64,000 nt of DNA from Acetobacteraceae bacterium (GTDB taxonomy: Bacteria > Pseudomonadota > Alphaproteobacteria > Acetobacterales > Acetobacteraceae): contig CANJJS010000006.1 in the NCBI GenBank assembly GCA_947474705.1, positions 1 through 64,000 on the forward strand, in the 5' to 3' direction. Shown here in pieces: positions 9,706 to 63,935 of the stretch. The notes under the pieces were generated by a model. That model did not search any database and was not told the DNA's origin. It saw only the letters and a program-made list of their open reading frames with translations. The position numbers were made by a program, and so were the translations under genes. How positions within the stretch are numbered: position 1 is the first letter of the stretch; every line of letters starts with the position of its first letter.

Positions 9706-9950
9706 GCCGGGGCGCCGCCCCGGACCCCGCGAGGGCTCCGCCCTTCGAACCCGCCAGGGGATCGTCCCCTGGACCGCGATCGATTTGGCGGGTTGTTCAG
9801 GGAGGCCCATGCGAGGGCGTTGACATGTCCGAGATGGCCCGCCCTGAACAACCCGCCACCTCGGGGTTCCAAGGGCGAGCCCCCAAGGCCCATTGGGGTG
9901 GGGTCGAGGGGCGAAGCCCCTCGTGGGGTCCGGGGCAGCGCCCCGGGGTT
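9706..9950. repeat. modular palindromic repeat, copy A
   Basis: Fills most of the 352-base gap between the DUF2126 gene and the ATP-grasp gene. Left flank: small hairpins (GGCGCCGCC core, GAGGGCTCCGCCCTT, CAGGGGATCGTCCCCTGG) and then GCGATCGATTT. The central hairpin has a 16-bp perfect arm, GGCGGGTTGTTCAGGG at 9787-9802, against 9842-9857; it extends inward to 24 bp with two mismatches. The right flank carries mirrored GGGCGAGCCC and GGGGCGAAGCCCC hairpins. In reverse complement the loop ends in CCTCGCAT as in copies D (reverse complement) and E. It separates two genes of one strand, so it may affect their co-transcription. Confidence 0.85.
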
Positions 9951-9981
9951 TCCCCAGACACAGACCCCTCGACCCCATGGC

Positions 9982-12900
9982 TCAGGCCAGGCGGCGCAGG
10001 TCGAGGGTGCGGGGGTGTTCGCGGGAGCGGGCGAGGGTGGGTTCGGGCATGGTGCCCGGTGTGTGACCGAAGGGGAAGAATCGGGCGCGGCGGCGGGCTT
10101 CGGCTTCGTTGGCGTTGACGGGCCGGTGGTCGTAGTGGCGTCCGCCGGGGTGGGCGACGTGGTATGTCATGCCGCCAAGCGAGCGGCCGGTCCAGCGGTC
10201 GAACACGTCGAAGATCAGGGGCACCTGCGGCCCCACGGTGGGGTGCAGGGCGCTGGGCGGGTTCCAGGCCTTGAAGCGGACGCCGCCGACATACTCGCCC
10301 TCCCGCTCCGTGGCGTTCAGCGGCACGGCGCGGCCGTTGCAGGCGAGGACGAAGCGTTCCTCGACCCAGCCGGCGACCCGGGCCTGCACGCGCTCGACGG
10401 AACTGTCGACGTAACGGACGGTGCCGGAGGCGCCGGTTTCCTCGCCCAGCACGTGCCAGGGTTCCAGCGCGGCGCGGAGTTCGACCTCGGCGTCGTGGAC
10501 GGGGACGGACCCGATATGGGGGAAGCGGAAGGCGAAATGGGGCGCGAACCAGGCGGTGTCGAGGGCGTGGCCGCGGGCGTGGAGTTCGTCGAGGGCATGG
10601 GAAAAATCGCGCTCGACGTAGTGGGGCAGCATGAAGTCGTCGTGCACGCGGGTGCCCCAGCGGATCAACTGACGCTCGTAGGGGTGTTCCCAGAAGGCGG
10701 CGACGGCGGCGCGCATGAGCAGCATTTGCGCGGCGGCCATGCGGGTGCCCGGCGGCATTTCCAGCGCCCGGAATTCCACCAGGCCGCGGCGGCCGGAGGC
10801 GGAATCGGGCGTGTAGAGTTTGTCGATGCAGAACTCGGTCCGATGCGCGTTGCCGGTCATGTCCGTGAGGATGTTGCGGAAGAGGCGATCCGTCATCCAG
10901 GGCGGCACGCTCTGTCCGGCCTGAATTTGCGAGAAGGCGATTTCCATCTCGGCGAGACTGTCCTGGCGTGCCTCGTCGATACGCGGGTGCTGGCTGGTCG
11001 GCCCGATGAACTGGCCGGAGAACAGGAAGGACAGGCTGGGGTGGTTATGCCAGAATCCCAGCAGCGACTTCAGCAGATCGGGACGGCGTAGGAAGGGCGA
11101 ATCCTCGGGCCGGGCGCCGCCCATGACCACGTGATTGCCGCCGCCGGTGCCGACATGGCGGCCGTCAAGGTCGAATTTCTCCGTGGCGAGGCCGCACAGG
11201 CGGGCTTCCTCGTAGAGTTCCTCGGTCTGTTGGACCTGTTCCGGCCAGGATTTCACCGGGTGGACGTTGACCTCGATGACGCCGGGGTCGGGGGTGACGG
11301 AGAAGGTGGTCAGGCGCGGGTCTTCCGGCGGCAGGTAGCCTTCCAGCACGACCGGGCGTTTGGTTTCGGCGGCGGTGTCCTCGATGGCGGCCAGCAGGTC
11401 GAGCCAGTCTTCCAGCGCGAACAAAGGCGGCAGGAAGATGTGGAGTTTGCCCTCGCGCGGTTCGACCGCGAGCGCGGTGCGGACGACATCGGGTTCGCCC
11501 CGCCCGGCGACGGGGAGTTCCTGCGCGACCGGGCGAAAGCCTTCGATGCCGGAACGGGTCTGAGGTTCCTCGCGCCGGGACCGGCGGAGAAAGGCCTGGT
11601 GCGGGGGAAGCGGGTCGCGCGGCGCGAAGGGATCGGGCGCCATGTCGGCGTCCACTGGCGTGTCGCCCGCCCAGGGGAGGGCTTCCAGGGGGAGGCGGAG
11701 GCCGATGGGGGAGTCGCCGGGGATGAGGAACATTTCGCCGCCGCGAAAAAACCAGCGGCCGGATTGCCAGCGCCGCGTGCCCGACTCGAGGACACGGCGC
11801 AGCGGCAGCACGCTGCCTACGATCGCATGCGGTCCCTGGCCGAACACTTTCGCGAGGCGGGCGCGTTCCAGTTCGTCGCCCAGTTTGGAGTCCTCGGCGA
11901 TCACGTTCGCGGGCAGGCGGTGTTCGCGCCAGAGATAGTAATGCGTGTCCTCGCGCGCGGGGATGACCAAGGCGGGATCGACCTGAAGCCGTTCGGCGAG
12001 GCGCCCGGCGAAGTCGGCGGCGCCCGCGGGGGTGACGTTATCCTTGAAGGGTTCGGTGGCCAGCAGCGATTCGTCGCGCCAGACCGGTTCGCCATCGGCG
12101 CGCCACAGGCAGTGGAACGCCCAACGGGGGAGTTGCTCGCCGGGGTATTGTTTGCCCATGACGTGCTGGAGCGCGGCGCCTTTGGTCCAGCGGGTCTGGA
12201 GGCGGCGGAGCAACCGGTCGGCGTAGCGGCGTTTGGTGGGGCCGGTGGCCTCGGTGTTCCACTCGGGCGCGTCGAGGTCGGTGGCGGAGACGAAGGTGGG
12301 TTCGCCGCCCATGGTCAGGCGGGTGTCGCCCTTGGCCAAGGCGCGATCGACGGCGGCGCCTTTGTCCAGGATCGCCCGCCACTGCGCCTCAGTGTACGGT
12401 TTCGTCACGCGCGGGGTTTCCAGCACGCGGGTCACCGACATCTCGAACCCGAACTCGGTTTCGCATTTTTCCACCATGCCGCTGATCGGCGCGGCGGAGG
12501 TCGGGTCGGGGCTGGCGGCCAGCGGGATATGGCCCTCGCCCGCGAGCAGGCCGGAGGTCGCGTCGAGTCCGATCCAGCCCGCGCCGGGGAGGTAGACCTC
12601 GCTCCAGGCGTGCAGATCGGTGAAGTCGGCGATGGGACCTTGCGGACCGTCCAGCGGCCGGACGTCGGGGGCGAGCTGGATCAGGTAACCGGAGACGAAA
12701 CGGGCGGCGAAACCCAGATTGCGCGCCAGTTGCACCATGAGCCAGGCGGAATCCCGGCAGGAGCCGCGGCCGAGCGTCAGCGTTTCCTCGGGCGTTTGCA
12801 CGCCGGGCTCCATGCGCACGACATACTCGATGCGTTCTTGCACAAGCTGATTCAGTTCCGTCAGCATCGTGACGGTGTGGCGTGCGGCGCGCGGGATTTC

Positions 12901-13296: not shown

Positions 13297-13487
13297 TTTT
13301 TGACTCTGGCGAGGGATCGTCGCGGTTATGTTGCGCCGCACAATCGCGGTATGCAAGTGGCGGATTCCAAGCGGCTCATCCAACGCCTTTTCGGCAGCGG
13401 CGGCGAGCCCGCCTGACCGCGCGCGCCAAGGTGACAGCCGCCGCGCGATCCCGTATGGCCACGCCCCAACGTTGATCGATTGTCGCG

Positions 13488-18463: not shown

Positions 18464-18694
18464 AGCCCCAGGGCTTCGCCCCGGACCCCACGGGGGCGCT
18501 GCCCCTCGACCCCGCCAAGGCAGGGCCTTGGATGCCAACTCCTTGGGGGAGAGGATGAAGGGGGGCCTACACGGACGTTGAAACGTCGTGGATGGCCCCC
18601 CTTCATCCTCTCCCCCAATTAACCGGGTCCAGGGCCCCCGCCCTGGTGGGTTCGACGGGCAACGCCCTCGCGGGGCCCGGGGCGGAGCCCCGGT
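18464..18694. repeat. modular palindromic repeat, copy B
   Basis: Occupies the 407-base divergent gap between rpmF and the PEP-mutase family gene. The central hairpin has perfect 25-bp arms, 18543-18567 and 18594-18618 (TTGGGGGAGAGGATGAAG plus GGGGGCC). The 26-base loop contains an inner GACGT-TGAA-ACGTC hairpin. The right flank, AATTAACCGGGTCCAGGGCCCCCG, matches the left flank of copy D in reverse complement, so B and D form one subfamily in opposite orientation. Outer modules are GGGCTTCGCCC and GGGGCGGAGCCCC hairpins. Confidence 0.85.
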
Positions 18695-27683: not shown

Positions 27684-27913
27684 CGGGGCTCTGCCCCGGA
27701 CCCCGCGAGGGCTCCGCCCTTCGAACCCGCCAGGGGAACGTCCCCTGGACCGCGATCGATTTTGGCCATGAATGAGAAAGGGCCTACTCGGACGTTGAAA
27801 CGTCTCGGTAGGCCCTTTCTCATTCATGGCCAAACCCCGGGGTTCCAAGGGCGAGCCCTTGGCGGGGTTCGAAGGGGCAGAGCCCCTCGCGGGGTCTGGG
27901 GCAGCGCCCCAGG
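27684..27913. repeat. modular palindromic repeat, copy C
   Basis: Sits between two convergent genes, ending 8 bases before the serine hydrolase stop. The central hairpin has perfect 26-bp arms, 27762-27787 and 27808-27833, beginning TTGGCCATGAATGAGAAAGG. The 20-base loop holds the inner palindrome GACGTTGAAACGTC. Left flank: GGGGCTCTGCCCC, GAGGGCTCCGCCCTT, CAGGGGAACGTCCCCTGG, then GCGATCGATTT as in copies A and E. Right flank: GGGCGAGCCC, GGGGCAGAGCCCC and GGGGCAGCGCCCC hairpins. It might serve as a bidirectional terminator here. Confidence 0.88.
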
Positions 27914-33731: not shown

Positions 33732-36700
33732 TCAGGCCGCGCGGGCGCTGCTGCCGTACCGCGGATAGGCGCGCATCGGCTCCAGATGGAGCGCCACATC
33801 CATTGCCGTCGCGCCCGCGAACCAGGCGGCGGGCAGCCGCGCGTCGCCGTCGGTCCAACGAAACTCGTTCTCCGGCTCGTAAGGATGGAACCCTTCCGCC
33901 AGGGCCGGGTCCGCCATGTCGAAAACATGAGCCTGTGCGCCGCGGGTCAGCGCGATTCCGCGGACGGCGACGCCCAGGCGCCGCGGATCGCGCAGGAGGG
34001 CCATTTCGGCGGGCGAACCGGCGCGCGATATCAGGCGTAGCTCCGATACCCCGGCGGGAACCTGGAAGCGGTAATGGCCGTCCGAGATGGCGGCGGGATC
34101 GATCCGCCGCCCATCCGCCAGCAAATGCGCGTCTGGGTCCGCCGCTTCCGCCAATGTCCGGCGCGCTGGCGCCCGGTCCAGGAACCGGCGCCATGCCGCG
34201 TCCACGATGGGTCCGCCGGTCGCCACCTCCGCGAAGGCGGGCTTCGGCGGGCCGTCCCAATCGGGATTGGCGTTTTGGAACAGCCAGCGGTTGCCGTCGT
34301 CGCGATAGGTTTCCGCCGCCGCGCCGTTGGCGATCAGGATGTCGTGCGATTCGAGTTCGATGTGATAGAACTCGACTTCGCGCCGGTGGTCGTCCCATTC
34401 GATGTTGCGGTGATTGACCAGGAATTCGGCCGGGATCAGCACACCGTCGATGTGGAACGAGTGGCCCTTGGTCACGCGCAGATCGTAATACGGGACATTG
34501 TCCGCGAAGGCGCCGCGCCGCACCACCACCGGAGTCGCGTCGCTCCGCTTTCCCGGCTGGACCAGCACTTTTCCGGTGCCGATCCACAGAATCGGGCGCG
34601 CGGTGCCGGACAAGGTCACGATCAGGTCGCCGGTTTTCAGGTCCTGCACCCGGACCTCGCCGTGGGGCGTGCGGATCAGCGTGTCGCGCAGGAAGCACGG
34701 CGCCTCCGTCGTCGTGACGACGCCGGAGCCCGTCACAGCGAAGGCGCCGCCGGAGAAGTCGCGGCCCGTGTCCAGCACGATGTCCACGGGGGCGTTGCCG
34801 GAGCGCTGAATTTCCAGCGTGTTACCGTTGACGATGCCGGCGGAGGTCGCGTCGGTCACCCCGGTCAGCGCGATGGTGTCCCCGGCCTGGAACCCCAGCA
34901 CGGTGCCCGCGAATTGCGTGGGATCGATCGTCAGCACGCCGCTGTTGGCGGTGAAAACAATCGTTTGGCCAGATGTCACGGTCCCGGCGACCGTCACCGC
35001 GCCGTCCGCCTGGATGAACTCGACGCCGGTGCCGGAAAGACTATCGACCGCCAGCGTGGAGGGATCGACGACGATGGTGCCGTTATTGACGATGGCGCCG
35101 CCATTCAAGGCCGCGTTCACCAGGGTTAGCGTGCCCGCGTTGGTCAGCGTGCCGGCATTTGTCAACGTCGTCCCGCTGGTCAGGGTGTTCGCCCCGGCGA
35201 AAACCCAGTTGGCGCCCGCGTCGATCGTCTCCCGCGCGAAATTGACGAATTGCGATCCGAGACCCGTCAGCGTGCCGGACGATGCCGCGGAGGCCAGCTC
35301 CAGCGTGCTGATCGCCGTGGCGCCGATCGTGTTGCCGCCGTCCACCTTGCCAACGAATACCGCGCCCGGCACGAATATCGCCCGGTTCGCGAAGCCCGTC
35401 CCCAGATGGACCGCGTAATCGCCGCCCGCCAGCGTCCCGGCGTTGGACACGGTGCCCGCGCCGCCTTCCAGGTGGACGGCCTGATTGTTGCCGGACACGC
35501 GCCCGCCGGCCTGGTTGACCACCGATCCCCCGATTTGCAGCTCGATCCCGTACGACATCGAGGTCGCGACGTTGTTCGCCGCGATGGAACCCATGTTGAC
35601 CACGGTCCCCACGCCGCCCGCGATCTGGACGCCGAAATAGTTGCCCGCGATCGAACCGCCCGCGAGGTTAAAGACGGTGCCGTCGCCGCCAATGGCCACG
35701 GCGGCCTGATCGGTCGCGGCGATCAGGCCGCCGTTGGACACGGTGCCGCCGCCGCTCGCGATCATGGCGCCCAACTGCTGGCCCAGGATCGTGCCGCCGG
35801 ACAGGTTCGAAACCGTCCCCTGAGCCCGTAAATACACGCCGATCCCGAACGTCCCCGCCGCCGTCACCAGGCCCGCGTTCGCCACCGACCCCCCGGCCCC
35901 TTGGGCCACGATCCCTCCATTCGCACCGGAGATCGTTCCGCCCGCGGCGTTGGAAATCGCGCCGCCATCCGCGCTGTAGATGCCGGCGCCAAACGTCCCG
36001 GTGCCCCTCACCAGCCCCGCGTTCGCCGCTGTCCCCTGCGACCCATCCAGCCGGATCCCGGCCTGGTCGCCGGAAATCGTGCCCCCGGCGGCGTTCGTGA
36101 CCCGGCCTAGCGTGTCCACCCGGACACCCGCGACGACCGAGCCAAGGATGAACCCCGCGTTACTGACGAAGGCGCTGTCGCCGTTGGTGAGAATCCCCGA
36201 GTAGTACCCGGCGATCGTGCCGCCGGCCTGGTTGATCACGCTGCCGCCGCCCGCCAGCGTGATCGCCTGGCTCTGCGTGCCGGGCACGACGATATCGGTC
36301 AGCGTGCCCGCGTTCGTCAGCGTGACGCCGGCGGCGATCCCGTCCGTCCCGTCGAAAATCCATTTCGCCCCGGTATCCACCTGGATCTGGGCGAAGTTCA
36401 GGAATTGCGTGCCAAGCGCGGTCAGTGTCCCGATGGCGGCGGCCGAGCCAAGTTCCAGCGTGCTGGCCGCCGTGGCACCGATCGTGTTGCCGCCATCGAC
36501 GACGCCCGAGAACACCGCGCCCGGATCGAAGATCACGCGTTCCGCGAAACCCGCCGCCAGCGTCACCGCGATCGTCGAACCCGCGATCGTGCCGGCGTTG
36601 CGCACGGTCAGTCCGGCATAAACGCCCTGTATGCCCCGCACGCCAGAGATCGTGCCGCCGGCCTGGTTGACAATCGTGCCGCCCGCCATCGCGAGAACGC

Positions 36701-39560
36701 CCCAATCGCCGCCGGGGGTGCCATTGGTGCCGGCGATGCGTCCCGCGTTGGTCAGAGTGACCGCGCTCCCGGCGGCGCGAACGCCCGCCCCGCCGGAGAT
36801 CGTGCCCGTGCTCTGGTTGGAGACGGTGCCGCCGAGATTGACCACCAAGGCCGCCCCGCTCGCGGTGTCGCCCAGAATTAGCCCGGCGTTCGTCACCGCG
36901 ACCGCGGTTCCGGTCGCCTCCAGCGCGTGCTGTCCGGAGATGGTGCCGGTGCTCCGGTTCGTGAGTGTCGTTCCGGCCGGGATCGCCGCGCCTATGATCG
37001 TCCCCAGGATACGGCCGGCGTTGTCGATGAGGCCGGCCGCGCCGGCGACAAGGCCGAAATTGCCGGAAATCGTGCCCGTGCTGAGATTGGCGACGGTGCC
37101 GAAGCCCGGCCCACCGAAAATATACAGTCCGGCATTGCTCCCGTCGATGCGGCCGGCGTTGCTGACGGTCCCTCCGGCGGCGATCGCCGCGGCGCGGTAG
37201 ACGCCGGAGATCGTGGCGCCCAGGGCGTTGGTCAAGGCACCGCCGGCCTGAAGCAGGACCCCGGTCGCGCCTGGGCCGCCGGCGCCCGCGATCGAGCCCG
37301 CGTTGACGACGGTCGCGGCGTTGAATCGCGCCTCGACGCCGATCGCGCCGGAGATCGTACCGGAGGCCTCGTTCGTGACGGTCCCGCTCGCGAACAGCCG
37401 GGCGCCGAAGCCGTTGACGGTGCTGCCCGCGATGGTTCCGGCGTTGGCGAGAGTCAGGCCCAGTCCGAGCGTGGCGCTGTAGCCGAAGACGCCGTAGAGG
37501 CCGGACACGCGGCCGGTGCTTTGGTTGGTGACCGTGCCGCCCTCGCGCAGCCGGATGCCCGCGCCGGAGGTTGGGTTCGCGGCGATCGAGCCCGCGTTCG
37601 CCACCGACAGCCCGGCGCCGCCGCCGAAGATCGCGTTATAACCGGAGATCGTCCCGGTGGTCTGGTTCGCGAGCGTGCCGCTGTCCGCGAACTGGACGCC
37701 GACGCCGGCGTTGGAGGCGGTGCCGCCCACGATCCGTCCGGCGTTGTCGACGGTCAGGCCCGCGACGCCGAAGACCCCGGACTCGCCGGCGATGGTGCCG
37801 GTGTTCTGGTTGGTGACCGACCCTGTGCCACCGCCGAATTTCACCCCGATGACGCCGCCGCCGATGCTGCCGGCATTGCCGACGGTGGAGAGACCGGCGG
37901 CGGCGTAAACGCCATTGTAGCCCCCCAGAATCCCCGCGCCCGCCGCGTTCGTCACCGTCCCGCCGCTTCGCAGGTAAATGCCAACGCCGGTGGTGGCGGA
38001 GGCACCGATCGAACCCGCGTTGACGATCGTCGCGTCTCCGCCCGCCAGACCCGCGACCGCGGTTTGCCCGGCGGAGATCGTGCCGGTCGAGGTGTTCGAC
38101 AGGATCGCGGCGGGCGCCACCGAGACCGGGCCGGTCAGCAGCCCGGCGTTGATCAGTGTGCCGGCATCGATCAGCGTGCCAAGAACGGAGAAGGCGGCCC
38201 CGGCTTCGATGGTGTTGGCGCCTGTGAGTGTCCAGGCCGCGCCGGTGTCCACCGTGCCCTGCGCGAAGCGGGTGAACTGCGTGCCAAGTCCGGTCAGTGT
38301 TCCGGCGGAGGCGCCGGATGAGAGTTCCAGTATGCTGGAAGATGTCGCCCCTATGGTGTTGCCGCCATCGACCGCGCCGGTGAAGACCGCGCCGGGCACC
38401 GCGACGACACGGTGCGCGAAACCCGCCGCGAACAGCACCGCGCCGGCGGACCCGGAGATCGTTCCGGCGTTGGTGACCGTCGCCGCGCCGCCATAGGCCC
38501 GGACACCGAACAGCGCGCCGGCGATGGTGCCGCTGGCCTGGTTTTCCGCCTGTCCCCCCGCGGAGAACAGGATGCCGCTGGCGGCCGATCCGGCGATCCG
38601 GCCCGCGTTGACGACGGAGACCGGCACATAATTGACCGCGATGCCGCCGGTATTGCCCACGATCGTGGCGCCCGCGGTATTGGAAACGGTTCCGCCGGCA
38701 CGGACGATCGCGCCGTAACCGGTCCCGGCGATCAGGCCGCCATTGCCGATGTTCGCCGCCGCGCCCTGGATGTCGATTCCGGCGGAACCGGAGAGTGTGC
38801 CCCCGGCGCTGTTGGCGAATGTTCCTCCGTTGAGAAAACGGGCGCCAATTCCCGTGAGCGCGAGCATGACTCCGGCGTTCTCGATCGTGGCGGCGGTTCC
38901 AGTGGCGTAAATCGCCTCCGCGCCCGAGATCGTGCCGCCAGCCGAATTGGTGACGTTGCCCCCGCCGGCGATCCGGATGCCATACTGGCCCGCGGTGACG
39001 ATCGACCCGGCGTTGACCACGGTTCCCGCGCCGCCAGACAGTTGGACGCCGAAATTCCCGCCGCCGATGGTCGCTCCGGCCCTGTTTTCCACGCGTCCGA
39101 TGCCGCCCAGCGAGACGCCGCCCGAAATCGCGCCGGAATTGTCCACGGTTCCTGGGCCGCCCGCGATCCGGATGCCCTCGGTGGTGCCGGTTATCGACCC
39201 CGTGGCGTCGTTGACGACCCGCCCGCCCGCGTTCATCCGGATGGCGGCGTAAACCGACGCGGAGATCGATCCCGCGTTGACCACGGTTCCGAGTCCGGCG
39301 GCAAACACGATCCCGAAGGATGTCCCGGCGATCGCGCCGCTCGCGAGATTGGACACGGTGCCCGCGCTGTTCAGGTACACCGCCGCGCCTGCCGTTCCGC
39401 TCGCGATCGTTCCGGCATTGACGATTGTCCAGCCGGCGCCGTACGCGGGCGCATACAGCCCCGCTTGCAGCAGTCCCGCGACGTCGATGGTGGCGGGATC
39501 GTCGGTCGATCCGGTCAGTGAGACCAGACTCGCATAGGTCGACGAAAGGGTGCGTGCCAT
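33732..39560 (-). CDS. giant repeat protein with C-terminal Hint (hedgehog/intein) domain
   Basis: 1942 residues. Residues about 30-1480 are dozens of short degenerate repeats built around N-A-G-x-I-x-G and G-G-x-(V/I)-x-N-x-x-x-G-x-I-x-G, expected to form a right-handed beta-helix surface protein. A longer punctuation module containing PGAVF, VDGGNTIGAT and STLEL occurs three times (about 381-470, 1004-1090 and 1389-1480), dividing it into macro-domains. The Hint_2-type domain starts at Cys1622 (CFLRDTLIRTPHGEV, VQDLKTGD) and has VTKGHSFHIDGVLIPAEFLV. About 150 residues follow to the end. No Sec signal peptide is seen, so type I or another secretion route is likely. GGAGGA precedes the ATG. 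Confidence 0.88.
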   Translation of the reverse strand: MARTLSSTYASLVSLTGSTDDPATIDVAGLLQAGLYAPAYGAGWTIVNAGTIASGTAGAAVYLNSAGTVSNLASGAIAGTSFGIVFAAGLGTVVNAGSISASVYAAIRMNAGGRVVNDATGSITGTTEGIRIAGGPGTVDNSGAISGGVSLGGIGRVENRAGATIGGGNFGVQLSGGAGTVVNAGSIVTAGQYGIRIAGGGNVTNSAGGTISGAEAIYATGTAATIENAGVMLALTGIGARFLNGGTFANSAGGTLSGSAGIDIQGAAANIGNGGLIAGTGYGAIVRAGGTVSNTAGATIVGNTGGIAVNYVPVSVVNAGRIAGSAASGILFSAGGQAENQASGTIAGALFGVRAYGGAATVTNAGTISGSAGAVLFAAGFAHRVVAVPGAVFTGAVDGGNTIGATSSSILELSSGASAGTLTGLGTQFTRFAQGTVDTGAAWTLTGANTIEAGAAFSVLGTLIDAGTLINAGLLTGPVSVAPAAILSNTSTGTISAGQTAVAGLAGGDATIVNAGSIGASATTGVGIYLRSGGTVTNAAGAGILGGYNGVYAAAGLSTVGNAGSIGGGVIGVKFGGGTGSVTNQNTGTIAGESGVFGVAGLTVDNAGRIVGGTASNAGVGVQFADSGTLANQTTGTISGYNAIFGGGAGLSVANAGSIAANPTSGAGIRLREGGTVTNQSTGRVSGLYGVFGYSATLGLGLTLANAGTIAGSTVNGFGARLFASGTVTNEASGTISGAIGVEARFNAATVVNAGSIAGAGGPGATGVLLQAGGALTNALGATISGVYRAAAIAAGGTVSNAGRIDGSNAGLYIFGGPGFGTVANLSTGTISGNFGLVAGAAGLIDNAGRILGTIIGAAIPAGTTLTNRSTGTISGQHALEATGTAVAVTNAGLILGDTASGAALVVNLGGTVSNQSTGTISGGAGVRAAGSAVTLTNAGRIAGTNGTPGGDWGVLAMAGGTIVNQAGGTISGVRGIQGVYAGLTVRNAGTIAGSTIAVTLAAGFAERVIFDPGAVFSGVVDGGNTIGATAASTLELGSAAAIGTLTALGTQFLNFAQIQVDTGAKWIFDGTDGIAAGVTLTNAGTLTDIVVPGTQSQAITLAGGGSVINQAGGTIAGYYSGILTNGDSAFVSNAGFILGSVVAGVRVDTLGRVTNAAGGTISGDQAGIRLDGSQGTAANAGLVRGTGTFGAGIYSADGGAISNAAGGTISGANGGIVAQGAGGSVANAGLVTAAGTFGIGVYLRAQGTVSNLSGGTILGQQLGAMIASGGGTVSNGGLIAATDQAAVAIGGDGTVFNLAGGSIAGNYFGVQIAGGVGTVVNMGSIAANNVATSMSYGIELQIGGSVVNQAGGRVSGNNQAVHLEGGAGTVSNAGTLAGGDYAVHLGTGFANRAIFVPGAVFVGKVDGGNTIGATAISTLELASAASSGTLTGLGSQFVNFARETIDAGANWVFAGANTLTSGTTLTNAGTLTNAGTLTLVNAALNGGAIVNNGTIVVDPSTLAVDSLSGTGVEFIQADGAVTVAGTVTSGQTIVFTANSGVLTIDPTQFAGTVLGFQAGDTIALTGVTDATSAGIVNGNTLEIQRSGNAPVDIVLDTGRDFSGGAFAVTGSGVVTTTEAPCFLRDTLIRTPHGEVRVQDLKTGDLIVTLSGTARPILWIGTGKVLVQPGKRSDATPVVVRRGAFADNVPYYDLRVTKGHSFHIDGVLIPAEFLVNHRNIEWDDHRREVEFYHIELESHDILIANGAAAETYRDDGNRWLFQNANPDWDGPPKPAFAEVATGGPIVDAAWRRFLDRAPARRTLAEAADPDAHLLADGRRIDPAAISDGHYRFQVPAGVSELRLISRAGSPAEMALLRDPRRLGVAVRGIALTRGAQAHVFDMADPALAEGFHPYEPENEFRWTDGDARLPAAWFAGATAMDVALHLEPMRAYPRYGSSARAA

Positions 39561-42334: not shown

Positions 42335-42585
42335 GGGGCTCCGCCCCAAACCCCGCGAGGGGCGTTGCCCCTTCGAACCCCACCAGGGCGGGGGCCCCCC
42401 GCCTTCGCAGGGACAGGCCTGGACCCGTTTAATTGGGGGAGAAGAAGAAGGGGGCCATGCGAGGCGGTTGCAACGTCCGTGTAGGCCCCCTTCTTCATCT
42501 CCCCCAAACAGACGGCATCCAAGGCCCTGCCTTGGCGGGGGTTGAGGGGGCAGCGCCCCCCACGGGGTCCGGGGCGGAGCCCTGG
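42335..42585. repeat. modular palindromic repeat, copy D
   Basis: Fills the 366-base gap between two plus-strand genes. The central arms are 24 bp, 42433-42456 and 42484-42507, with one mismatch (TTGGGGGAGAAGAAGAAGGG followed by GGCC). The 27-base loop read in reverse complement is TACACGGACGTTG followed by CAACCGCCTCGCAT, close to copy E. The left flank matches the right flank of copy B in reverse complement but contains about 20 extra bases around GCCTTCGCAGGGACAGG, an apparent insertion or deletion between copies. Outer hairpins are GGGGCTCCGCCCC and GGGGCGTTGCCCC. Confidence 0.85.
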
Positions 42586-42685: not shown

Positions 42686-43519
42686 ATGTTGAGCAATCGT
42701 CTGGAAATCCGGCCCATGGCCGGCGCGGTCGGCGCCGAAATCGGCGGAATCGATCTGGCGGACCTGTCCGATGGGACGGTTTCGGAGATTGGCGGCGCGC
42801 TGGCGGAATATGGCGTGGTGGTGTTCCGCGATCAGACCCTGACGGAAGAGCAGCATATCGCCGCCGCCCGCCGGTTCGGCCAGATCGATATCAACCGCTT
42901 CTTCGCGAAGACCGAGCGTCATCCGGAAATCGCGTTGGTCGTGAAAGAGCCTGACCAGACCGTGAATATCGGCGGCGGGTGGCACACGGATCACAGCTAC
43001 GACCAGCTCCCCGCGCTGGGCTCGATGCTGTACGCGCGCGAGGTTCCGCCCGCCGGCGGCGACACCATGTTTTCCAGCATGTATGCCGCTTACGACGCAC
43101 TGTCCGACGGGTTGAAGGAAACCCTGTCCGGTTTGCGCGCGGTCCACTCCAGCCGTCACGTCTTCGGTAAGAACCGGGACGGGTTGAAAGGCCGCGTCGG
43201 CAATCCCGAACTGGCGACACAGGACGCGGTCCACCCCGTGGCGATCGTGCATCCCGCAAGCGGACGTAAGGCGTTATACGTCAATCCCGGGTTCACGTTG
43301 CGCTTCGATGGCTGGACCGCCGAGGAATCGGCGCCGCTGCTCAGCTATCTTTATAAACACGCGACACGGCCGGAGTTTACCTGCCGCCTGAACTGGCGGA
43401 ACGGATCTCTGGCGTTCTGGGACAATCGTTCCACCTGGCATTATGCTCTGAACGACTATCAGGGCGAACGCCGGCTGATGCATCGCATCACCATCGCCGG
43501 CGGGCCGCTGCACGGCTGA
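42686..43519 (+). CDS. TauD/TfdA-family Fe(II)/2-oxoglutarate dioxygenase
   Basis: 277 residues. Hydroxylates small organic acids such as taurine or aryloxyalkanoates with 2-oxoglutarate and O2. The iron ligands are His100 and Asp102 in GGWHTDHSYD, with His252 in RSTWHYALNDY; the 2-oxoglutarate-binding Arg lies near 263-266 in RRLMHRI. The start at 42686 has AGGAGG 6 bases upstream. The substrate cannot be determined. It is a single gene, ending in a palindromic terminator. Confidence 0.92.
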   Translation: MLSNRLEIRPMAGAVGAEIGGIDLADLSDGTVSEIGGALAEYGVVVFRDQTLTEEQHIAAARRFGQIDINRFFAKTERHPEIALVVKEPDQTVNIGGGWHTDHSYDQLPALGSMLYAREVPPAGGDTMFSSMYAAYDALSDGLKETLSGLRAVHSSRHVFGKNRDGLKGRVGNPELATQDAVHPVAIVHPASGRKALYVNPGFTLRFDGWTAEESAPLLSYLYKHATRPEFTCRLNWRNGSLAFWDNRSTWHYALNDYQGERRLMHRITIAGGPLHG

Positions 43520-43538
43520 CGCGCTTTCGTCTCATTCC

Positions 43539-43564
43539 GCCGGGGATCGCGCGCGATCCCCGGC
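43539..43564. terminator. 26-bp perfect palindrome between convergent genes
   Basis: GCCGGGGATCGCG is followed immediately by its reverse complement, giving a 26-bp perfect palindrome 19 bases after the TauD-type stop and 7 bases before the hydrolase stop on the other strand. The position suits a bidirectional terminator; there is no T-run. Confidence 0.6.
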
Positions 43565-43571
43565 GTCCCTG

Positions 43572-44453
43572 CTATTTCATTCCTGTAATGGAAGAACTCA
43601 TCGCCCGCGGGTCCCGCGCCGGCCAGCGTCCCGCGTCCACCTGAGCCACGAAATCCGCCACCAGCCGGTTGAACTGGTCGGGGTCTTCGATATTGATCGT
43701 GTGTCCGCAGTTCGGCATCACCGACAGCGCCGCCGAGGGAATGTTCCGCTTCATCAACAATGCCGGTTGCAGGCACGGCCAGTCCTCGTCCCCGGTCAAC
43801 ACCAGGGTCGGAACCGTCAGCTTCTTCATGTCGTCGACGAGCTCGTACAAGGACGGACGCTCGCCCTGCACGCCGAGCTGCGTGTTCCGCGCGCCGATTT
43901 TGGAATGTTCCGCCAGTTGTTGTTTGAATTCGGCGAATCCGCGGGGGTTCTTGTTCTCGAACTGCACCCGGGTCGGACCGTAGGCGTATTGTTCCGCGAA
44001 AGCTTCGATCGGGTTGTCGTCGATGAATTTCGCGATGACCCGAACTTCCGCGCGAAATTTGTCCCGTTCCCCGGCTTCCGCGCCATACCCGCAGCCCGCG
44101 ACGGTCAGCGACAAAGCCCGGTCCGGATGGCGAAAGCCGAAATGCAGTGTCGCGAACCCGCCCATCGACAACCCGACGATATGCGCCTTTTCGATCTTCA
44201 GCCCGTCCAGAATGGACGCGATATCGTCAGCCGCGCGATACTGGGAGTATTTCGACACGTCGTCCGGCACGTCGGACGGCGGATAGCCCCGCGCGCCGTA
44301 AGTAATGGCGCGGTAACGCTGCCCGAAAAATCGCATTTGCGGTTCCCACGCCCGGTGATCGCCCGCGTATTCGTGGACGAAGATCATCGGCGTGCCGGTG
44401 CCGGTTTCCTCGTACCAGAGGCGTATACCGTCGTCTGTCTGGGCGTATGGCAT
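43572..44453 (-). CDS. alpha/beta hydrolase
   Basis: 293 residues of the alpha/beta hydrolase fold, an esterase, lactonase or related enzyme. The nucleophile elbow is GLSMGG with Ser96. The oxyanion-hole region is MIFVHEYAGDHRAWEPQMR (HEYAG where many have HGxxG). The acid is probably in LTGDEDWPC and the catalytic His in MPNCGHTINIEDPDQFN. ATG 44453 is used because homology starts at MPYAQTDDGIRLWYE. It is divergent from the Nudix gene with 106 bases between. Confidence 0.9.
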   Translation of the reverse strand: MPYAQTDDGIRLWYEETGTGTPMIFVHEYAGDHRAWEPQMRFFGQRYRAITYGARGYPPSDVPDDVSKYSQYRAADDIASILDGLKIEKAHIVGLSMGGFATLHFGFRHPDRALSLTVAGCGYGAEAGERDKFRAEVRVIAKFIDDNPIEAFAEQYAYGPTRVQFENKNPRGFAEFKQQLAEHSKIGARNTQLGVQGERPSLYELVDDMKKLTVPTLVLTGDEDWPCLQPALLMKRNIPSAALSVMPNCGHTINIEDPDQFNRLVADFVAQVDAGRWPARDPRAMSSSITGMK

Positions 44454-49012: not shown

Positions 49013-49242
49013 GGGCTCTGCCCCAGACCCCGCGAGGGCTTCGCCCCTCGACCCCACCAGGGGAACGTCCCCTGGACCGCGATCGATTTTGGGCGGTTGT
49101 TAAGGGAGGGCCTTCCACGGACGTTGATACAGCCTCGCATGGCCCTCCCTTAACAACCGCCCAAACCCCGGGGTTCCAAGGGCGAGCCCTTGGCGGGGTT
49201 CGAAGGGGCAGAGCCCCGCGCGGGGTTTGGGGCGGAGCCCCA
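49013..49242. repeat. modular palindromic repeat, copy E
   Basis: Lies in the 340-base gap between panC and the GMC oxidoreductase gene, both plus strand. The central hairpin has perfect 24-bp arms, 49089-49112 and 49141-49164, starting TTGGGCGGTTGTTAAGGG. The 28-base loop begins TTCCACGGACGTTG and ends CCTCGCAT. Left flank contains GGGGCTCTGCCCC, CAGGGGAACGTCCCCTGG and GCGATCGATTTT, as in copies A and C. Right flank: GGGCGAGCCC, GGGGCAGAGCCCC and GGGGCGGAGCCCC hairpins. Confidence 0.88.
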
Positions 49243-58602: not shown

Positions 58603-59100
58603 TTTAACACGGAGGGCACGGAGGAGACACGGAGGGCCGCGGAGACGCCGTGCCGGTCAGACGACGCAGCGGAGAATTCCGTCTTTCAGGCGTTTGGCGT
58701 GGAAGTTCATGAGCAGGCCGATTTTGAGGTGGCTCATGCGGAGGTCGGTCGGGAGTTGGGCTTTATGGGCGGGGAGTATGGCCGTTACAGCTTTGATTTC
58801 CACGACGACCGCGTCCGCGACGACGATGTCGGCGCGGTAGCCCATGGGGATCGAGCGGCCTTTATAGATGGCGGGAAGAATGACTTCCGTTTGGAAGGGG
58901 ATGCCAGCGTCGTCGCGTTCGTGGCGGAGGCAGGTCTGGTAAAAGGATCCGAGCATGCCTGGGCCGGACTCGCGGTGGACAGCGATGGCGAGGCCGATGA
59001 TCTTTTCGGTCAGGGCACCTTGTTCCAGCATGAAGAACCTCCGTTTCTTCTCCGTCGGTCTCCGTCGGTCTCCGTGTTCTCCGTGGTAAAACTTAATAAA
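58603..59100. repeat. inverted flanks around a GxxExxY gene cassette
   Basis: The left flank (58603-58648) reads TTTAACACGGAGGGCACGGA and further ACGGAG units. The right flank (59045-59100) has CTCCGTCGGTCTCCGTCGG and CTCCGTGTTCTCCGTGG, and in reverse complement gives TTAAGTTTTACCACGGAGA with the same ACGGAG units. The two flanks are imperfect inverted repeats bounding one gene, which suggests a mobile or recombining cassette. No transposase is present. Confidence 0.55.
58657..59031 (-). CDS. GxxExxY-family protein
   Basis: 124 residues, complete. A PD-(D/E)XK-like small protein family named for its motif; function is unknown. The motif here is GMLGSFY (26-32), so the Glu that names the family is Gly. 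The remaining marks are intact: LTEKIIGLAIAVHRESGPG, PFQTEVILPAIYKGRSIPMG, YRADIVVADAVVVEIKAV and KIGLLMNFHAKRLKDGI. The D-VVEIKAV block is the nuclease-like core. ATG 59031 is used because the preceding codons are the repetitive CTCCGT flank. Confidence 0.85.
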   Translation of the reverse strand: MLEQGALTEKIIGLAIAVHRESGPGMLGSFYQTCLRHERDDAGIPFQTEVILPAIYKGRSIPMGYRADIVVADAVVVEIKAVTAILPAHKAQLPTDLRMSHLKIGLLMNFHAKRLKDGILRCVV

Positions 59101-59180
59101 GTCTGAACGGGCGCGCGTTTTCCCGAGGGGCACGATCCTGGCCAGCGCGGCGATCTCGCGCCTGGCGATGACGGATGGCG

Positions 59181-61709
59181 CTATTTCATCGCCGCCAGCT
59201 TCGCCTCCAGTTCCGCGATCCGCTGTTCCGCCATGGGCAAGGCGTAACTGTTCCCGCCGTCGCGGAACACCGAGGCCGCCTCTTTTGTCGCCTCGATCGC
59301 CGACAGCAGCGTGGCACGATCGCCGGTCCGGTCCGCCAGCGCCTCCCACGCGAACCCCATGTTGTAACGCGTGCTGGCCCAGTTCAGCGGCACGCGCGCC
59401 TGGGTCCACTCGGTCAAAGCGAGGCGGAAGGCCGCAACGGCGTCTTCCAGCCGGGCGGTGCCGCTCTCGCGTTGGCCCAGGGTTTGCAGCGCGGCGCCGA
59501 GGTTGTTCTGGGTCGCGGCCCAGTCCAGCGGCACGCGCGCCTGGGTCCACTCGGTCAAAGCGAGGCGGTAGGCGGCGACGGCTTCTTCCAGGCGGGCGGT
59601 GCCGCTCTCGCGTTGGCCCAGGGTTTGCAGCGCGGTGCCGAGGTTGTTCTGGGTCATGGCCCAGTCCAGCGGCACGCGCGCCTGGGTCCGCTCGGTCAAA
59701 GCGAGGCGGTAGGCGGCGACGGCTTCTTCCAGCCGGGCGGTGCCGCTCTCGCGTTCGCCCAGGGTCCACAGCGCGTTGCCGAGGTTGTTCTGGGTCGCGG
59801 CCCAGTCCAGCGGCACGCGCGCCTGGGTCCGCTCGGTCAAGGCGAGCCGGTAGGCGGCGACGGCGTCTTCCAGCCGGGCGGTGCCGCTCTCGCGTTGGCC
59901 CAAGGTCCACAGCGCGAGGCCGAGGTTGTTCTGGGTCCTGGCCCATTGCATCGGCACGCGCGCCTGGGTCTGCTCGGTCAAAGCGAGGCGGTAGGCGACG
60001 ACGGCTTCTTCCAGCCGGGCGGTGCCGCTCTCGCGTTGGCCCAGGGTCCACAGCGCGTTGCCGAGGTTGTTCTGGGTCGCGGCCCAGTCCAGCGGCACGC
60101 GCGCCTGGGTCCACTCGGTCAAAGCGAGGCGGTAGGCGGCGACGGCTTCTTCCAGCCGGGCGGTGCCGCTCTCGCGTTGGCCCAGGGTTTGCAGCGCGGC
60201 GCCGAGGCCGAGTTGGGCGTTGGCCCAGGCGTCGGGGGCGGTGGCGCGGGGGCTGGCTTCGGCGGCGAGGCGGTAGGCGGCGGCGGCCTGGTCCAGCAAG
60301 GAGGGGCCGGGGTCGCGTTCGCCGAGGCGGGTCAGTGCTTTGCCCAGGCGGTACTGGGCGGCGGCCCAGGCGGCGGGAGCGGTTTGGCGGTTGGTCTGGG
60401 CGAGGATGGCGTGGGAACGTTCGATCGCGGCGGTCAGCGCCTGGTTGTCGCCGAACTCCTCGCCCTGGGCGAAGAGCGCGTCGGCGGCGGCGATGGCGTG
60501 GGGGAACGCGGCCTGTGGGTCGAAGGACAGCAGCCGCGCGGCCTCATCGTAGAACCCGGCCGCTTCGCGATAGGCCAATTGCAGGCGGGAGACGCGGCCG
60601 GTTTCCGCCGCCAGCGCCGCGGCGCCGCGGGCGACTTTCTCGCCTTCGGCTTTGGCCATGGCGCGCGCCGCGTCCAGGCCTTTCCTGGCGTCGGCGAGGG
60701 CCAGAACGCCGATGCGGTCGCGGGCGTCCTTCAGCGCGCGGGAAATGTTGGCGTCGAAGTTTTCCTGGGGCGGCGGTGGCTTTTTCGCGTCGGTCAGGAT
60801 GCGCTCGACCTCGGCAGCGAGTTTTTCGTCCTGCACGCGGTCGATGTTGGGGATGTCGGGCCGGAGCAGGTCGCGGATGCGCTTCATCGCCTCCAGCGCG
60901 GCCTGGCCGCCGGTTTCGGCGATCTTTGTTTCCGCCTGGATTCTTTCGATGCGGGCGAGGGCGGCCATGATCTCCGGCTGCCCGGCGACGAGTGTCTGGA
61001 CCCCGGTCTGGGTGGTTTGCGTCGTGGCGGCGATCGTGTCGAGCTTCTTGCCGGTGTGGAGGCTCGACCACACCACCAGCGCCGCCATCGCCGCGACCGC
61101 GACGCCCAGCCCGCCGAACATCCAGGCGCGTTCGCGGCGGATGGCGTCGGTGACGCGGCTCAGCACCTGCCCCACCGTCAGGCCCGTCATCCCCGCGACC
61201 ACTTTCGCCTGGGCGCGCGCCCGTCCGTCGCCGTGCCGCCGCGGGTCGGCGGCGATGACATCGACCGGCGTGTCCAAAATCGCGCCGTCCTCGGCGATCG
61301 CGAAACGATAGGCGGGCGGGAAACATTCTTTGTCCGGGTCGCCGGGTTGGCCTTTCAGGATGATCGCGACGACGGGGCGGTACGGGTATTTCCAGCGGAA
61401 CCAGCGCACTTCCTCATTCACATATGTGCTGACCGCAGCGGCCGGGGAGGCCAGCAGGATCAGCGCGGCGGACCCGTCCAGCGCGGCGCGGGTCATCGCG
61501 GTCAGCTCGCCGCCCGCCGGAAAATCCTGGCGGTCGTGGAAGATCGGGGACAGCGCGTGGGGGACCGGACCGAGGGGCGTTGCCTGCCCGATCAGGCGGA
61601 CATCGATGCGGAATCGTTCCAGCCGCCACCGCCAGAGCCACGCGGCGGCGCGGTCCTTGTGGCTGTAGGACAGAAAGGCGCGATACTTCCAGGGCGGCGG
61701 GTCGGACAT
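59181..61709 (-). CDS. TIR-like domain, transmembrane helix and TPR repeat protein
   Basis: 842 residues. A TIR-like domain at 8-150 starts KYRAFLSYSHKDRAAAWLW and has LILLASPAAAVSTYVNEEVR, where Glu99/Glu100 are candidates for a catalytic Glu. One transmembrane helix at about 197-216 follows a basic stretch. A coiled-coil-like segment (240-470) precedes TPR-type repeats. Six repeats of 47 residues (141 bp) run from about 490 to 775, with TQARVPLDWAATQNNLGNAL and SGTARLEEAVAAYRLALTE. ATG 61709 begins MSDPPPWKYRAF. Signalling or defence is inferred from TIR proteins in general; there is no direct evidence. Confidence 0.85.
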   Translation of the reverse strand: MSDPPPWKYRAFLSYSHKDRAAAWLWRWRLERFRIDVRLIGQATPLGPVPHALSPIFHDRQDFPAGGELTAMTRAALDGSAALILLASPAAAVSTYVNEEVRWFRWKYPYRPVVAIILKGQPGDPDKECFPPAYRFAIAEDGAILDTPVDVIAADPRRHGDGRARAQAKVVAGMTGLTVGQVLSRVTDAIRRERAWMFGGLGVAVAAMAALVVWSSLHTGKKLDTIAATTQTTQTGVQTLVAGQPEIMAALARIERIQAETKIAETGGQAALEAMKRIRDLLRPDIPNIDRVQDEKLAAEVERILTDAKKPPPPQENFDANISRALKDARDRIGVLALADARKGLDAARAMAKAEGEKVARGAAALAAETGRVSRLQLAYREAAGFYDEAARLLSFDPQAAFPHAIAAADALFAQGEEFGDNQALTAAIERSHAILAQTNRQTAPAAWAAAQYRLGKALTRLGERDPGPSLLDQAAAAYRLAAEASPRATAPDAWANAQLGLGAALQTLGQRESGTARLEEAVAAYRLALTEWTQARVPLDWAATQNNLGNALWTLGQRESGTARLEEAVVAYRLALTEQTQARVPMQWARTQNNLGLALWTLGQRESGTARLEDAVAAYRLALTERTQARVPLDWAATQNNLGNALWTLGERESGTARLEEAVAAYRLALTERTQARVPLDWAMTQNNLGTALQTLGQRESGTARLEEAVAAYRLALTEWTQARVPLDWAATQNNLGAALQTLGQRESGTARLEDAVAAFRLALTEWTQARVPLNWASTRYNMGFAWEALADRTGDRATLLSAIEATKEAASVFRDGGNSYALPMAEQRIAELEAKLAAMK
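59395..60240 (-). repeat. six near-identical 141-bp tandem repeats inside the TIR-TPR gene
   Basis: The phrase CTGGGTCCACTCGGTCAAAGC (with 1-2 base changes) recurs every 141 bases, at 59400, 59541, 59682, 59823, 59964 and 60105. Each unit encodes one 47-residue TPR-like repeat in frame. DNA identity is far higher than needed for protein fold, which points to recent duplication or gene conversion and predicts copy-number variation. Confidence 0.9.
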
Positions 61710-62008
61710 GGACGGCTCGCGAAACGGATGAACAACGTTACCACCGAACCGCGCCGCGGCAAGTCCTCCACTCCCGAGGCTCCCGCCGCGCCCGGCCCCC
61801 TCCTTCGCGCCTCCGGCGCCTTCACGATCTTCGCGCGCTTCGAGGTCTTCGCGCCAACACCGCCCCCTCCTTCCGCGCGGACCCCACCGCCAGGCTCCCA
61901 CCCAGAAAAAATCCGCGCGCCCGAAAATCCAACCGGCGCGGTCCCCCGTAACAACGATGTGCCTCCCAATCGCGGCGAAGCACGCAGCCACACACAGGGG
62001 ATAACGCC
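61710..62008. other. non-coding divergent spacer with a low-complexity GAAG/CTTC stretch
   Basis: A 299-base gap between the divergent TIR-TPR and SnoaL-like genes. Its middle (about 61795-61860) is a run of CTTCGCGC-like units (CCTTCGCGCCTCCGGCGCC, CACGATCTTCGCGCGCTTCG) and a CCCCCTCC stretch. I see no tRNA, hairpin terminator or defined promoter. Both genes should have promoters here. Confidence 0.5.
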
Positions 62009-62410
62009 ATGTCTGACAATGTCGCGTTCATCGGCACCATGTATGCCGCCTTCGGCCGGGGCGATCTGCAAACGATCCTGGACAATCTCGATCCGGCCGT
62101 AAGCTGGGAGTCGAATGGCGATCCGGACCGGATGCCCTGGGGGGGCAAGCGGTCGGGCCTCGCCGGCGCGCGGTCGTTTTTCGAGGCTTTGGGCGGCAAT
62201 CTCGACTTCGAATTGTTCGAACCGGGGACGTTTTATCCGTCGGGCGACGCGGTGATCGTGCATGGGCAAACGGTCGCGCGGCACAAGACGGGGGCGCGGG
62301 GGCAGTGGCGGTCGGAATGGGTGCATATTTTCACGCTCCGCGGCGGTAAGATCGTCCGGTTCCAGGAGTTTTACGACACGGCGGCGATGGAGCGGGCGCT
62401 GGCGGGCTGA
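62009..62410 (+). CDS. SnoaL-like / ketosteroid isomerase-related protein
   Basis: 133 residues with the NTF2-type fold: VAFIGTMYAAFGRGDLQTIL, DNLDPAVSWESNGDP and VHIFTLRGGKIVRFQEFYDT. This is the typical layout of uncharacterised SnoaL-like proteins (PF12680). The ATG follows GGGGATAACGCC, a fair ribosome-binding site. It lies between the TIR-TPR gene (divergent) and recA. Its product is not obviously related to either neighbour. Confidence 0.87.
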   Translation: MSDNVAFIGTMYAAFGRGDLQTILDNLDPAVSWESNGDPDRMPWGGKRSGLAGARSFFEALGGNLDFELFEPGTFYPSGDAVIVHGQTVARHKTGARGQWRSEWVHIFTLRGGKIVRFQEFYDTAAMERALAG

Positions 62411-62491
62411 GCGGCGGTCTCTTGGGAAGCGGCGCGGGTGTTCCCGGAAAGTTCTCGCATCCCCCCTGCATACGGGGGTGGGAATCGATGA

Positions 62492-62506
62492 GAACATATG
62501 ATAAAC
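62492..62506 (+). promoter_or_regulatory. LexA-type SOS box upstream of recA
   Basis: GAACATATGATAAAC matches the alphaproteobacterial LexA direct repeat GAAC-N7-GAAC with one mismatch in the second half-site. TATGAT inside it (62497-62502) can serve as a -10 element, so repressor binding would block transcription. It lies 138 bases before the recA start. Confidence 0.6.
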
Positions 62507-62644
62507 AAATCGGGTCGCGAGCGGCGAATCGGGGAATCGGGCGCTTGCGACGCGATTAATGTTTGGGAAATACACGTATTGCGTGTGGTTCCTGGATCAG
62601 ATACACTCGCCGTCGTCAACCTGGATCGAAAGAAAGTCGCGCCC

Positions 62645-63685
62645 ATGGAAAAATCCAAAGCACTCGACGCCGCTGTCGCGCAGATCGAACGCGCCTTCGG
62701 CAAAGGCTCGATCATGCGGATGGGCGCGCGCGCCGAGGGGCAGAATGTCGATGTCGTGCCCACGGGCTCGTTGGGGCTGGATCTCGCGCTGGGGATTGGC
62801 GGGCTGCCGCGGGGGCGGATCATCGAGTTGTACGGGCCGGAAAGCTCGGGCAAAACCACGCTGGCGCTGCATGTGATCGCGGAGGCGCAGAAGCGCGGCG
62901 GGGCCTGCGCGTTCATCGACGCGGAGCACGCGCTGGACCCGACTTACGCCCGCAAGCTCGGCGTCGATCTGGACAATCTTCTTATTAGCCAGCCGGATGC
63001 GGGCGAGCAGGCGTTGGAGATCACGGACACGCTGGTGCGCTCGGGCGCGATCGATGTGCTGGTGATCGACAGCGTGGCGGCGCTGGTGCCGCGGGCCGAG
63101 CTGGAAGGCGAAATGGGCGACAGCCACATGGGCCTGCACGCGCGGCTCATGAGCCAGGCACTACGAAAAATCACGGGGAGCGTGTCGAAGAGTAAGTGTA
63201 TCCTGATATTCCTGAACCAGATTCGGATGAAGATCGGCGTGATGTTCGGCAACCCGGAGACGACGACGGGCGGCAACGCGTTGAAATTCTACGCCTCGAT
63301 CCGGATGGAAATCCGCCGCACCGGGCAGATCAAGGAACGCGACGAGGTCGTGGGCAACCAGACCCGGGTGAAAGTCGTGAAAAACAAGATGGCGCCGCCG
63401 TTCCGGCAGGTCGAGTTCGACATCATGTATGGCGAAGGCGTCAGCCGCACGGGCGAGTTGCTGGACCTCGGCATCAAGGCCGGGGTTGTGGAAAAGTCGG
63501 GCTCCTGGTTCAGCTATTCGTCGCAGCGGGTTGGGCAGGGGCGCGAGAACGCGAAGCAGTTCCTGAAAGATCATCCGGATATCGCCGATGCCATCGAGGC
63601 GAAGGTGCGGGAACAATCGGGCATCGTCGCCAACGCGCTGATGGTCGCGCCGACCGAGGAAGACGAGGCGGAAGCGGCGGAATAA
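62645..63685 (+). CDS. recA: recombinase RecA
   Basis: 346 residues. ATP-dependent strand exchange and LexA co-protease. Walker A is GPESSGKTT (64-72), Walker B is [15 protein letters not shown], and loop L2/L1 regions include [13 protein letters not shown] and [18 protein letters not shown] 62645 ([20 protein letters not shown]) matches the normal RecA start. A LexA-type box with an overlapping -10 lies upstream. The acidic C-terminal tail (EEDEAEAAE) is typical. The gene is followed by repeat copy F. Confidence 0.98.
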
Positions 63686-63711
63686 GATCGAACGGCGGTT
63701 TTGGGGCACGC

Positions 63712-63935
63712 GCTGGGGCGCTGCCCCAGGCCCCGCGAGGGCTCCGCCCTTCGAACCCGCCAAGGGCTCGCCCTTGGAACCCCGGTATTGGTGCTCTGTG
63801 GGAGGGGTTGCGCCGGGACCGTATCGGTCCCGGCGCATCCCCTTCCACAGAGCACCAAATCGATCGCGGTCCAGGGGACGATCCCCTGGTGGGGTCGAGG
63901 GGCGAAGCCCTCGTGGGGTCCGGGGCAACGCCCCG
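63712..63935. repeat. modular palindromic repeat, copy F
   Basis: Begins about 26 bases after the recA stop. The central arms are 33 bp, 63788-63820 and 63826-63858, with two mismatches (TTGGTGCTCTGTGGGAGGGG onward) and only a 5-base loop, GTATC. The conserved GGACGTTG loop of the other copies is absent. The CGATCGCGGTCCAGGGG module lies on the right, so this copy is inverted relative to A, C and E. Outer hairpins: GAGGGCTCCGCCCTT, GGGCTCGCCC and GGGGCAACGCCCC. Confidence 0.85.

Follow-up and report, generated by a model that had tools for sequence, protein, structure and literature searches.

The stretch of 64,000 nucleotides from an Acetobacteraceae bacterium analyzed here (hereafter the window) carries six copies of an element of about 230 bp, which belongs to a dispersed family of intergenic palindromic repeats that is unusually informative about mutation. 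The main force in the evolution of this element is probably template switching of DNA synthesis at its nested inverted repeats, a cause that we infer from the way in which the copies differ. The signatures of template switching are present at two nested levels. The arms of the central hairpin co-vary, the loop and the inner part are inverted at orthologous sites, the inner part is replaced, and the flanks are inverted repeats specific to each locus. On crossing an inverted repeat, the nascent strand would jump to the other arm, on its own folded strand or on the sister, and later return. A switch at the central arms would copy one arm onto the other, keeping complementarity while the sequence drifts, and could invert the loop; a switch between the outer hairpins could likewise invert the inner part; and one that ran beyond the outer hairpin would copy the DNA flanking one side, inverted, onto the other. 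According to the available text of two studies, template switching between inverted-repeat arms homogenizes the arms and inverts the spacers (PMC8604942; PMC8794818), and comparable patterns have been reported in rRNA stems (PMC8794818). The process is thus already documented, contrary to the earlier note on this DNA, which knew of no described mechanism for arms that change in step.

The element is a nested palindrome in the order H1, H2, H3, central hairpin, H3', H2' and H1', that is, six small GC hairpins, three on each side of a long central one; H1 has the sequence GGGGCnnnGCCCC. The central arms typically run from a TTGG start to GGGCC around a loop of mostly 20-28 nt, whose core resembles CGGACGTTGAAACGTCCG, and a second arm type combines arms of 32-35 nt with a loop of 2-5 nt. 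The size of the family was studied in the genome of the window (G000; 5.48 Mb in 205 contigs) and in a set of 33 genomes of its genus, G000 included (G-numbers stand for genomes and L-numbers for fetched loci). For one gene of G000, the six closest named relatives, at 75-80% identity, come from MAGs labelled Acetobacteraceae or Asaia. A 15-nt inner-flank motif occurs in G000 at 47 places exactly and at four more with one mismatch, versus three places at up to two mismatches for the reversed control pattern; L127 and L128, two of the four with one mismatch, had no profile match. A profile search of 52 fetched G000 loci and the window returned 59 non-overlapping matches, 47 complete and 12 partial. 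Six fetched contigs stop inside the central hairpin and hold partial copies, five of them of the second type. Further copies, whose absence the earlier note would have taken as a refutation, thus exist in the genome. A covariance model built from 94 aligned centres matches 22 of the 33 genus genomes, with at least 96 matches on both strands in each of G000 and G032 and at least 643 across 21 other genomes of the genus. In an order-wide sample, with 12 candidates per genome scored, it matches 75 of 250 genomes and 23 of 58 genera; plain BLAST with one copy reached 22 of 59 genomes and two of 27 genera.

According to a simple gene caller, 57 of the 59 G000 copies are clear of called genes and the other two overlap one by 51 and 25 nt. 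The gene contexts are tandem (26), divergent (17), convergent (7, two of which are pieces at the single site L102) or at edges (9). A regular H1 is found on both sides in 38 of the 47 complete copies; of these 76 hairpins, 66 have their two outermost pairs matched internally. The left and right H1 agree in 10 of these 38 copies, 13.4 being expected by chance; the small hairpins behave as units of their own.

The central hairpins were compared in the 47 complete G000 copies and in 54 copies from relatives; 60 loci of the latter were fetched, and L219 and L270 (other repeats) as well as L217, L232, L273 and L275 (no clear central hairpin) were left out. Among the 2565 arm pairs of these 101 hairpins only 45 are mismatched (12 A-C, 9 G-T and 24 other). 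In 35 aligned G000 copies, the arms differ on average by 33% between copies and by 0.8% within a copy, a value as low being reached in none of 10,000 permutations. The alignment of 94 centres gives the same picture: 90.2% of the cells are paired, as opposed to 75.0% after shuffling and 62.5-67.4% after a shift of the partners by one column, 29 of the 38 pairs have changed on both sides, and cells with a change on both sides number 596 versus 211 in shuffles. Finally, 49 pairs of nearest copies differing at 1-5 of 20 positions show 103 changes in both arms (53 transversions and 50 transitions) and 23 in a single arm (6 transversions and 17 transitions). The permutations, the alignment and the nearest copies thus strongly support the proposal of the earlier note that both arms change together, and the covariation, when set against the divergence between copies, lies far above shuffles. 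Its description of the arms as unlike between copies holds only in part, since a large number of those in G000 vary on a few patterns, chiefly TTTGGCCGGTTGTTAAGGGAGGGCC.

The orientation of the central loop could be compared in 26 of the 47 complete G000 copies, which have the same frame and comparable loops. Relative to the frame, 14 loops point one way and 12 the other, and reorienting them raises the mean pair score by 3.6, at most 0.73 being gained in 20 shuffled sets. None of 76 H1 loops, on stems of about 7 bp, was found in the opposite orientation. Since spacer inversions occurred only with arms longer than 9 bp in the published data, as far as the available text of the source goes (PMC8604942), this absence is counted in favor of template switching.

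Comparisons of single sites between species, at 86-93% identity, reveal three types of event: inversion of the loop, inversion of the inner part and replacement of the inner part. At L216/L241 (88.6% over 3.8 kb) the loop matches better inverted (21/26, score 16) than direct (18/26, score 4), the inner flanks keep their orientation and the arms have changed on both sides. At L218/L236 (86-88%) the loop and both inner flanks are inverted (33/34 and 31/34), and at L231/L247 (92.7%) the inner flanks are exactly inverted (34/34 and 34/34), with the loop unchanged in orientation relative to the genes (24/26 direct). At L307/L313, a site common to G013 and G031 (89% over 7.8 kb), the outer hairpins and flanks are near identical and the inner part is of a different subtype. 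No orientation change was seen at L229/L249 (84-89%), and at L113/L257 (80%), L134/L256 (75%) and L089/L250 (69-73%) the site is occupied in both genomes with differing arms. Both elements in a 40-kb region of G013 have an occupied counterpart in G031. Template switching is expected to change both arms more often than one and to invert the spacer between arms that are kept, and both patterns are found. From the window, the earlier note could see neither the flipped loops nor the inner parts inverted or replaced between species, nor the extension into unique flanks.

The palindrome continues past the outer hairpins, the flanks beyond them being inverted repeats in their turn. They were examined with an edge-anchored test, which reads outward from H1 and compares the left flank with the reverse complement of the right one. 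The G000 copies have a median score of 21, as opposed to a median of 1 for controls slid by 14-44 nt (99% level 12, maximum 16); 39 of 46 G000 copies and 28 of 40 copies from other genus genomes exceed the 99% level of the slid controls. Copies with no findable outer hairpin or too little flank were left out (one of 47 in G000, 14 of 54 in the genus), as were eight of 13 extra G031 loci and 19 of 24 wider loci (two of these 24 from the genus). Among the extra G031 and wider loci, respectively, 4/5 and 3/5 exceed the slid controls and 0/5 and 1/5 a cross-copy control made of the ends of other copies; the evidence on flanks is thin beyond G000 and the first set from the genus. Within genomes, the match between the left and right flanks of the same copy lies above the 99% level of 2340 cross pairs in 43 of 86 copies.

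The inverted flanks often reach into called genes. As many as 22 of 45 copies are still above the 99% control level when the count begins at the first called gene boundary, in a test that starts from an alignment path picked on the data and has therefore an upward bias of unknown size. At L105, the tail of the gene is conserved in relatives and the noncoding side carries the inverted match, which is therefore most simply a copy of the gene end; the anchored score alone reveals it, BLAST at E 1 reporting no such match. In six orthologous pairs (seven were taken, L231/L247 being without an edge), 25 of 240 outer positions changed in concert on both sides, 18 of them in the two most distant pairs, as opposed to 7.2 with arms from different loci. 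Identity along the aligned flank paths is about 66-76%, and an assembly artefact, which would be near exact, is unlikely to have produced these repeats. The possibility that elements act as nuclei of palindrome growth, spreading inverted copies into unique flanks and gene ends, is one that we raise tentatively and rate somewhat below even. A separate case of inverted DNA around an element is L261 in G027, where positions 194-637 and 888-1329 form a long inverted duplication (72.6% over 449 nt); it is read as two convergent related genes (62% over 150 residues).

Gains of elements also occur. An orthologue, at 82% or more, of the gene preceding the L105 element is present in 30 of the 33 genus genomes, G000 included; of the remaining three, two have weak paralogue-like matches and one has none. 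No element was found with two profiles, which may miss divergent types, within 597 nt downstream of the 29 other orthologues. The gene pair at the site of element A lacks an element in six genomes. The empty orthologous sites suggested by the earlier note were thus found at the gene level (L105 and site A), but none at the base level. Next to the same gene at site A, G023 carries part of an element at the end of a contig, and element A is therefore perhaps not exclusive to G000. In G031, the L312 element adjoins a gene that has none in G013; since its other neighbor differs, it is not a clean empty site.

Several other scenarios may explain parts of these data. One of them, which we consider unlikely, is that recombination between paralogous copies exchanges the inner hairpin as a unit, its palindromic form allowing either orientation, so that the arms would change in step and seem species-specific. 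Exchange between copies does occur at one site, L307/L313, and the two L113/L257 copies, at a site common to G000 and G027, have arms typical of their own genomes. Yet nine both-arm states are private to one of the 35 aligned copies, as opposed to six single-arm mismatches, and the sampled donors give no private states; the inverted flanks of locus-unique DNA would also be left unexplained. Selection for a folded RNA or an extruded DNA structure, with compensatory second mutations, would agree with the strong covariation, with the retention of the structure in matches from 23 of the 58 sampled genera and with the position of nearly all copies outside called genes. Nevertheless, we regard it as highly improbable: transversions, which have no G-U intermediate, make up half of the changes in both arms between nearest copies, G-T pairs are no more numerous than A-C pairs among the mismatches, the 26 tandem contexts reveal no preferred gene orientation (14 same, 12 opposite), and this kind of selection predicts neither loop inversion nor inverted flank copies. 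Earlier bacterial data are cited as favoring transversions under template switching in the available text of PMC8604942. Of the two causes that the earlier note offered for the joint change of the arms, hairpin-templated copying fits better than compensatory selection.

A MITE- or REP-type element moved in trans, whose transposition would make the palindromic flanks and the inversions, could account for the L105 copy, which is missing from the corresponding gene end in all 29 of the other genus genomes read, and for several copies with purine-rich, inverted ends. It seems no more credible than structural selection, since the inversions happen at fixed sites, no target duplication has been established (the empty sites being known at the gene level), and the REP transposase (RAYT) family PF01797 shows no link with the elements, being present in five of the 33 genus genomes. 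It was found in none of seven genomes other than G000 with more than 40 model matches each (G031, G032, G016, G013, G027, G023 and G004; five of them 64-89% complete), and the single PF01797 gene of G000 has no adjoining element profile match better than E 0.27. The ends of the element are inverted repeats that are largely locus-specific. Intrinsic terminators were rejected: the copies have hardly any T runs and lie in divergent as well as in tandem and convergent contexts. Window elements A, B, C, E and F together contain one terminator-like site (in B), and the regional counts are 13 and 20, versus 13.8 and 15.1 in shuffles. A scan of the window with Rfam 15 gave only a tRNA at the gathering threshold, and the 11 matches of element C, nine of them to microRNA hairpins, are all below it. 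In a plasmid search, L348 had no match and element C one GC-rich match of 49 nt to Prauserella (E 3e-5), taken as chance. Loss of SbcD was considered as a permissive factor and set aside as not discriminating, carriers and non-carriers of the element being alike: none of the 33 genus genomes has a match above the curated cut-off and all 33 have weaker ones.

Template switching thus seems the most plausible of these explanations, and a number of points count against it. The central arms are perfect in 69 of the 101 hairpins, but the repeat finder chooses the best repeat and is biased toward perfect arms, and the unpaired remainder of the alignment that is 90.2% paired is partly misalignment. 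The excess of transversions among both-arm changes is weak (Fisher p = 0.037), and yeast data show more transitions than transversions in the available text of PMC8604942. The loop inversion at L216/L241 depends on a loop of 26 nt that is partly palindromic. The swap at L307/L313 moved both arms at once, so exchange between copies may explain some of the both-arm changes. In G000, the inner hairpins on the two sides of one copy usually differ from each other, and switching through the whole element must therefore be rare. The flank evidence is also weaker against the cross-copy control, exceeded by only 31 of 46 G000 copies and 13 of 40 copies from other genus genomes.

In nature, template switching is difficult to study, its events being usually single and old. 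Here, some 50 parallel loci in one genome would allow copied arms, inverted loops, inverted inner parts and copied flanks to be counted. Strong stem covariation, usually taken to prove a functional RNA, may come from copying alone. If the palindromes do spread outward, gene tails and heads beside an element would evolve partly by copying from the neighbor across it, and growing flanks would provide a route for overwriting gene ends.

The six elements described in the earlier note were recovered in the window with the same bounds (Table 1), and an inverted-repeat search bears out their near-perfect arms (25-37 nt, 86-100% complementary in all six). Perfect inverted repeats of at least 16 bp with a gap of at most 45 occur at four places, all inside elements A, B, C and E, and none was found in 20 first-order Markov sequences. 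Lowering the minimum to 12 bp gives nine places, six of which are the six elements (Markov mean 0.55, maximum 3). Element F, which had been presented as the lone exception to the rule on arm ends, belongs to the second arm type; it lies 26 nt past the stop of recA (62645-63685). Elsewhere in the window, positions 35664-35754 hold a perfect inverted repeat of at least 14 bp inside a gene of 1942 residues with a Hint domain (33732-39560), positions 43500-43590 a perfect GC-rich hairpin between the ends of convergent genes, perhaps a terminator, and positions 59181-61709 a large TIR-domain gene that also has TPR matches. A second palindromic repeat, CTCCCCCTCCCCTTGAGGG, was seen at L307:7460-7600 in G013, with a G031 counterpart in L313, and also in L219 near position 810 (G032); its orthologous copies at L307/L313 differ in both arms by roughly matching inner segments, likewise symmetric.

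Table 1 Elements of the palindromic family in the window and the outer flanks of element A
Feature	Position	Strand	Remarks
Element A, complete	9706..9950	+	central arms about 9785-9810 and 9834-9859
Element A, left outer flank	9670..9705	+	imperfect inverted repeat of 9951-9982; bounds by eye
Element A, right outer flank	9951..9982	-	imperfect inverted repeat of 9670-9705; bounds by eye
Element B, variant frame	18464..18694	-	lacks the ACCGCGATCGAT inner flank; arms 18543-18567 and 18594-18618
Element C	27684..27913	+	between stops of convergent genes; arms 27761-27787 and 27808-27834; 20-nt loop
Element D, variant frame	42335..42585	+	arms 42433-42456 and 42484-42507
Element E	49013..49242	+	arms 49088-49112 and 49141-49165 (25/25 paired); 28-nt loop, reversed orientation
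Element F, second arm type	63712..63935	-	arms 63788-63821 and 63825-63858; 3-nt loop

Among known bacterial repeats, those of the ERIC/RU-1 type in enterobacteria are intergenic, 100-170 bp long and present in many copies; to our knowledge, no arm turnover of this kind has been described for ERIC. Lichenicola cladoniae belongs to the same family as the organism of the window. The genome of this species is rich in predicted intergenic palindromes, 1,369 according to the text and 6,569 according to a table of the study, which predicts short hairpins (loop of at most 11 nt by default) and whose available parts contain no description of the composite element (PMC12306157). The titles and abstract openings of the literature on Acetobacteraceae repeats and on template switching at palindromes, a scope outside which many subscription papers, and preprints, fall, do not describe the element either. 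The REP/BIME and GTAG/CGTC families resemble it as high-copy intergenic palindromes with variable stems and loops and paired inverted units, but their units of 20-40 bp contrast with a nested array of about 230 bp, and the available text on REP/BIME describes neither loop flips nor locus-specific inverted flanks (PMC3733652). The same text states that CGTC families are missing from Acetobacteraceae (PMC3733652). GTAG or CTAC was found within 6 nt of the central hairpin foot in none of the 47 complete G000 copies, and elsewhere in the hairpin in 13 of 47; the CGTC tag and the small hairpin feet were assessed only by eye. The likeness to quasipalindrome mutation extends to arm homogenization, both-arm changes and inversion of the spacer or loop, and the published template-switch events, as far as the available parts of these papers go, concern yeast genes or rRNA with short spacers or loops (PMC8604942; PMC8794818). 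By contrast, the elements studied here form a dispersed family in which such changes recur at two nested levels; their loops are mostly of 20-28 nt and their flanks are inverted as well.

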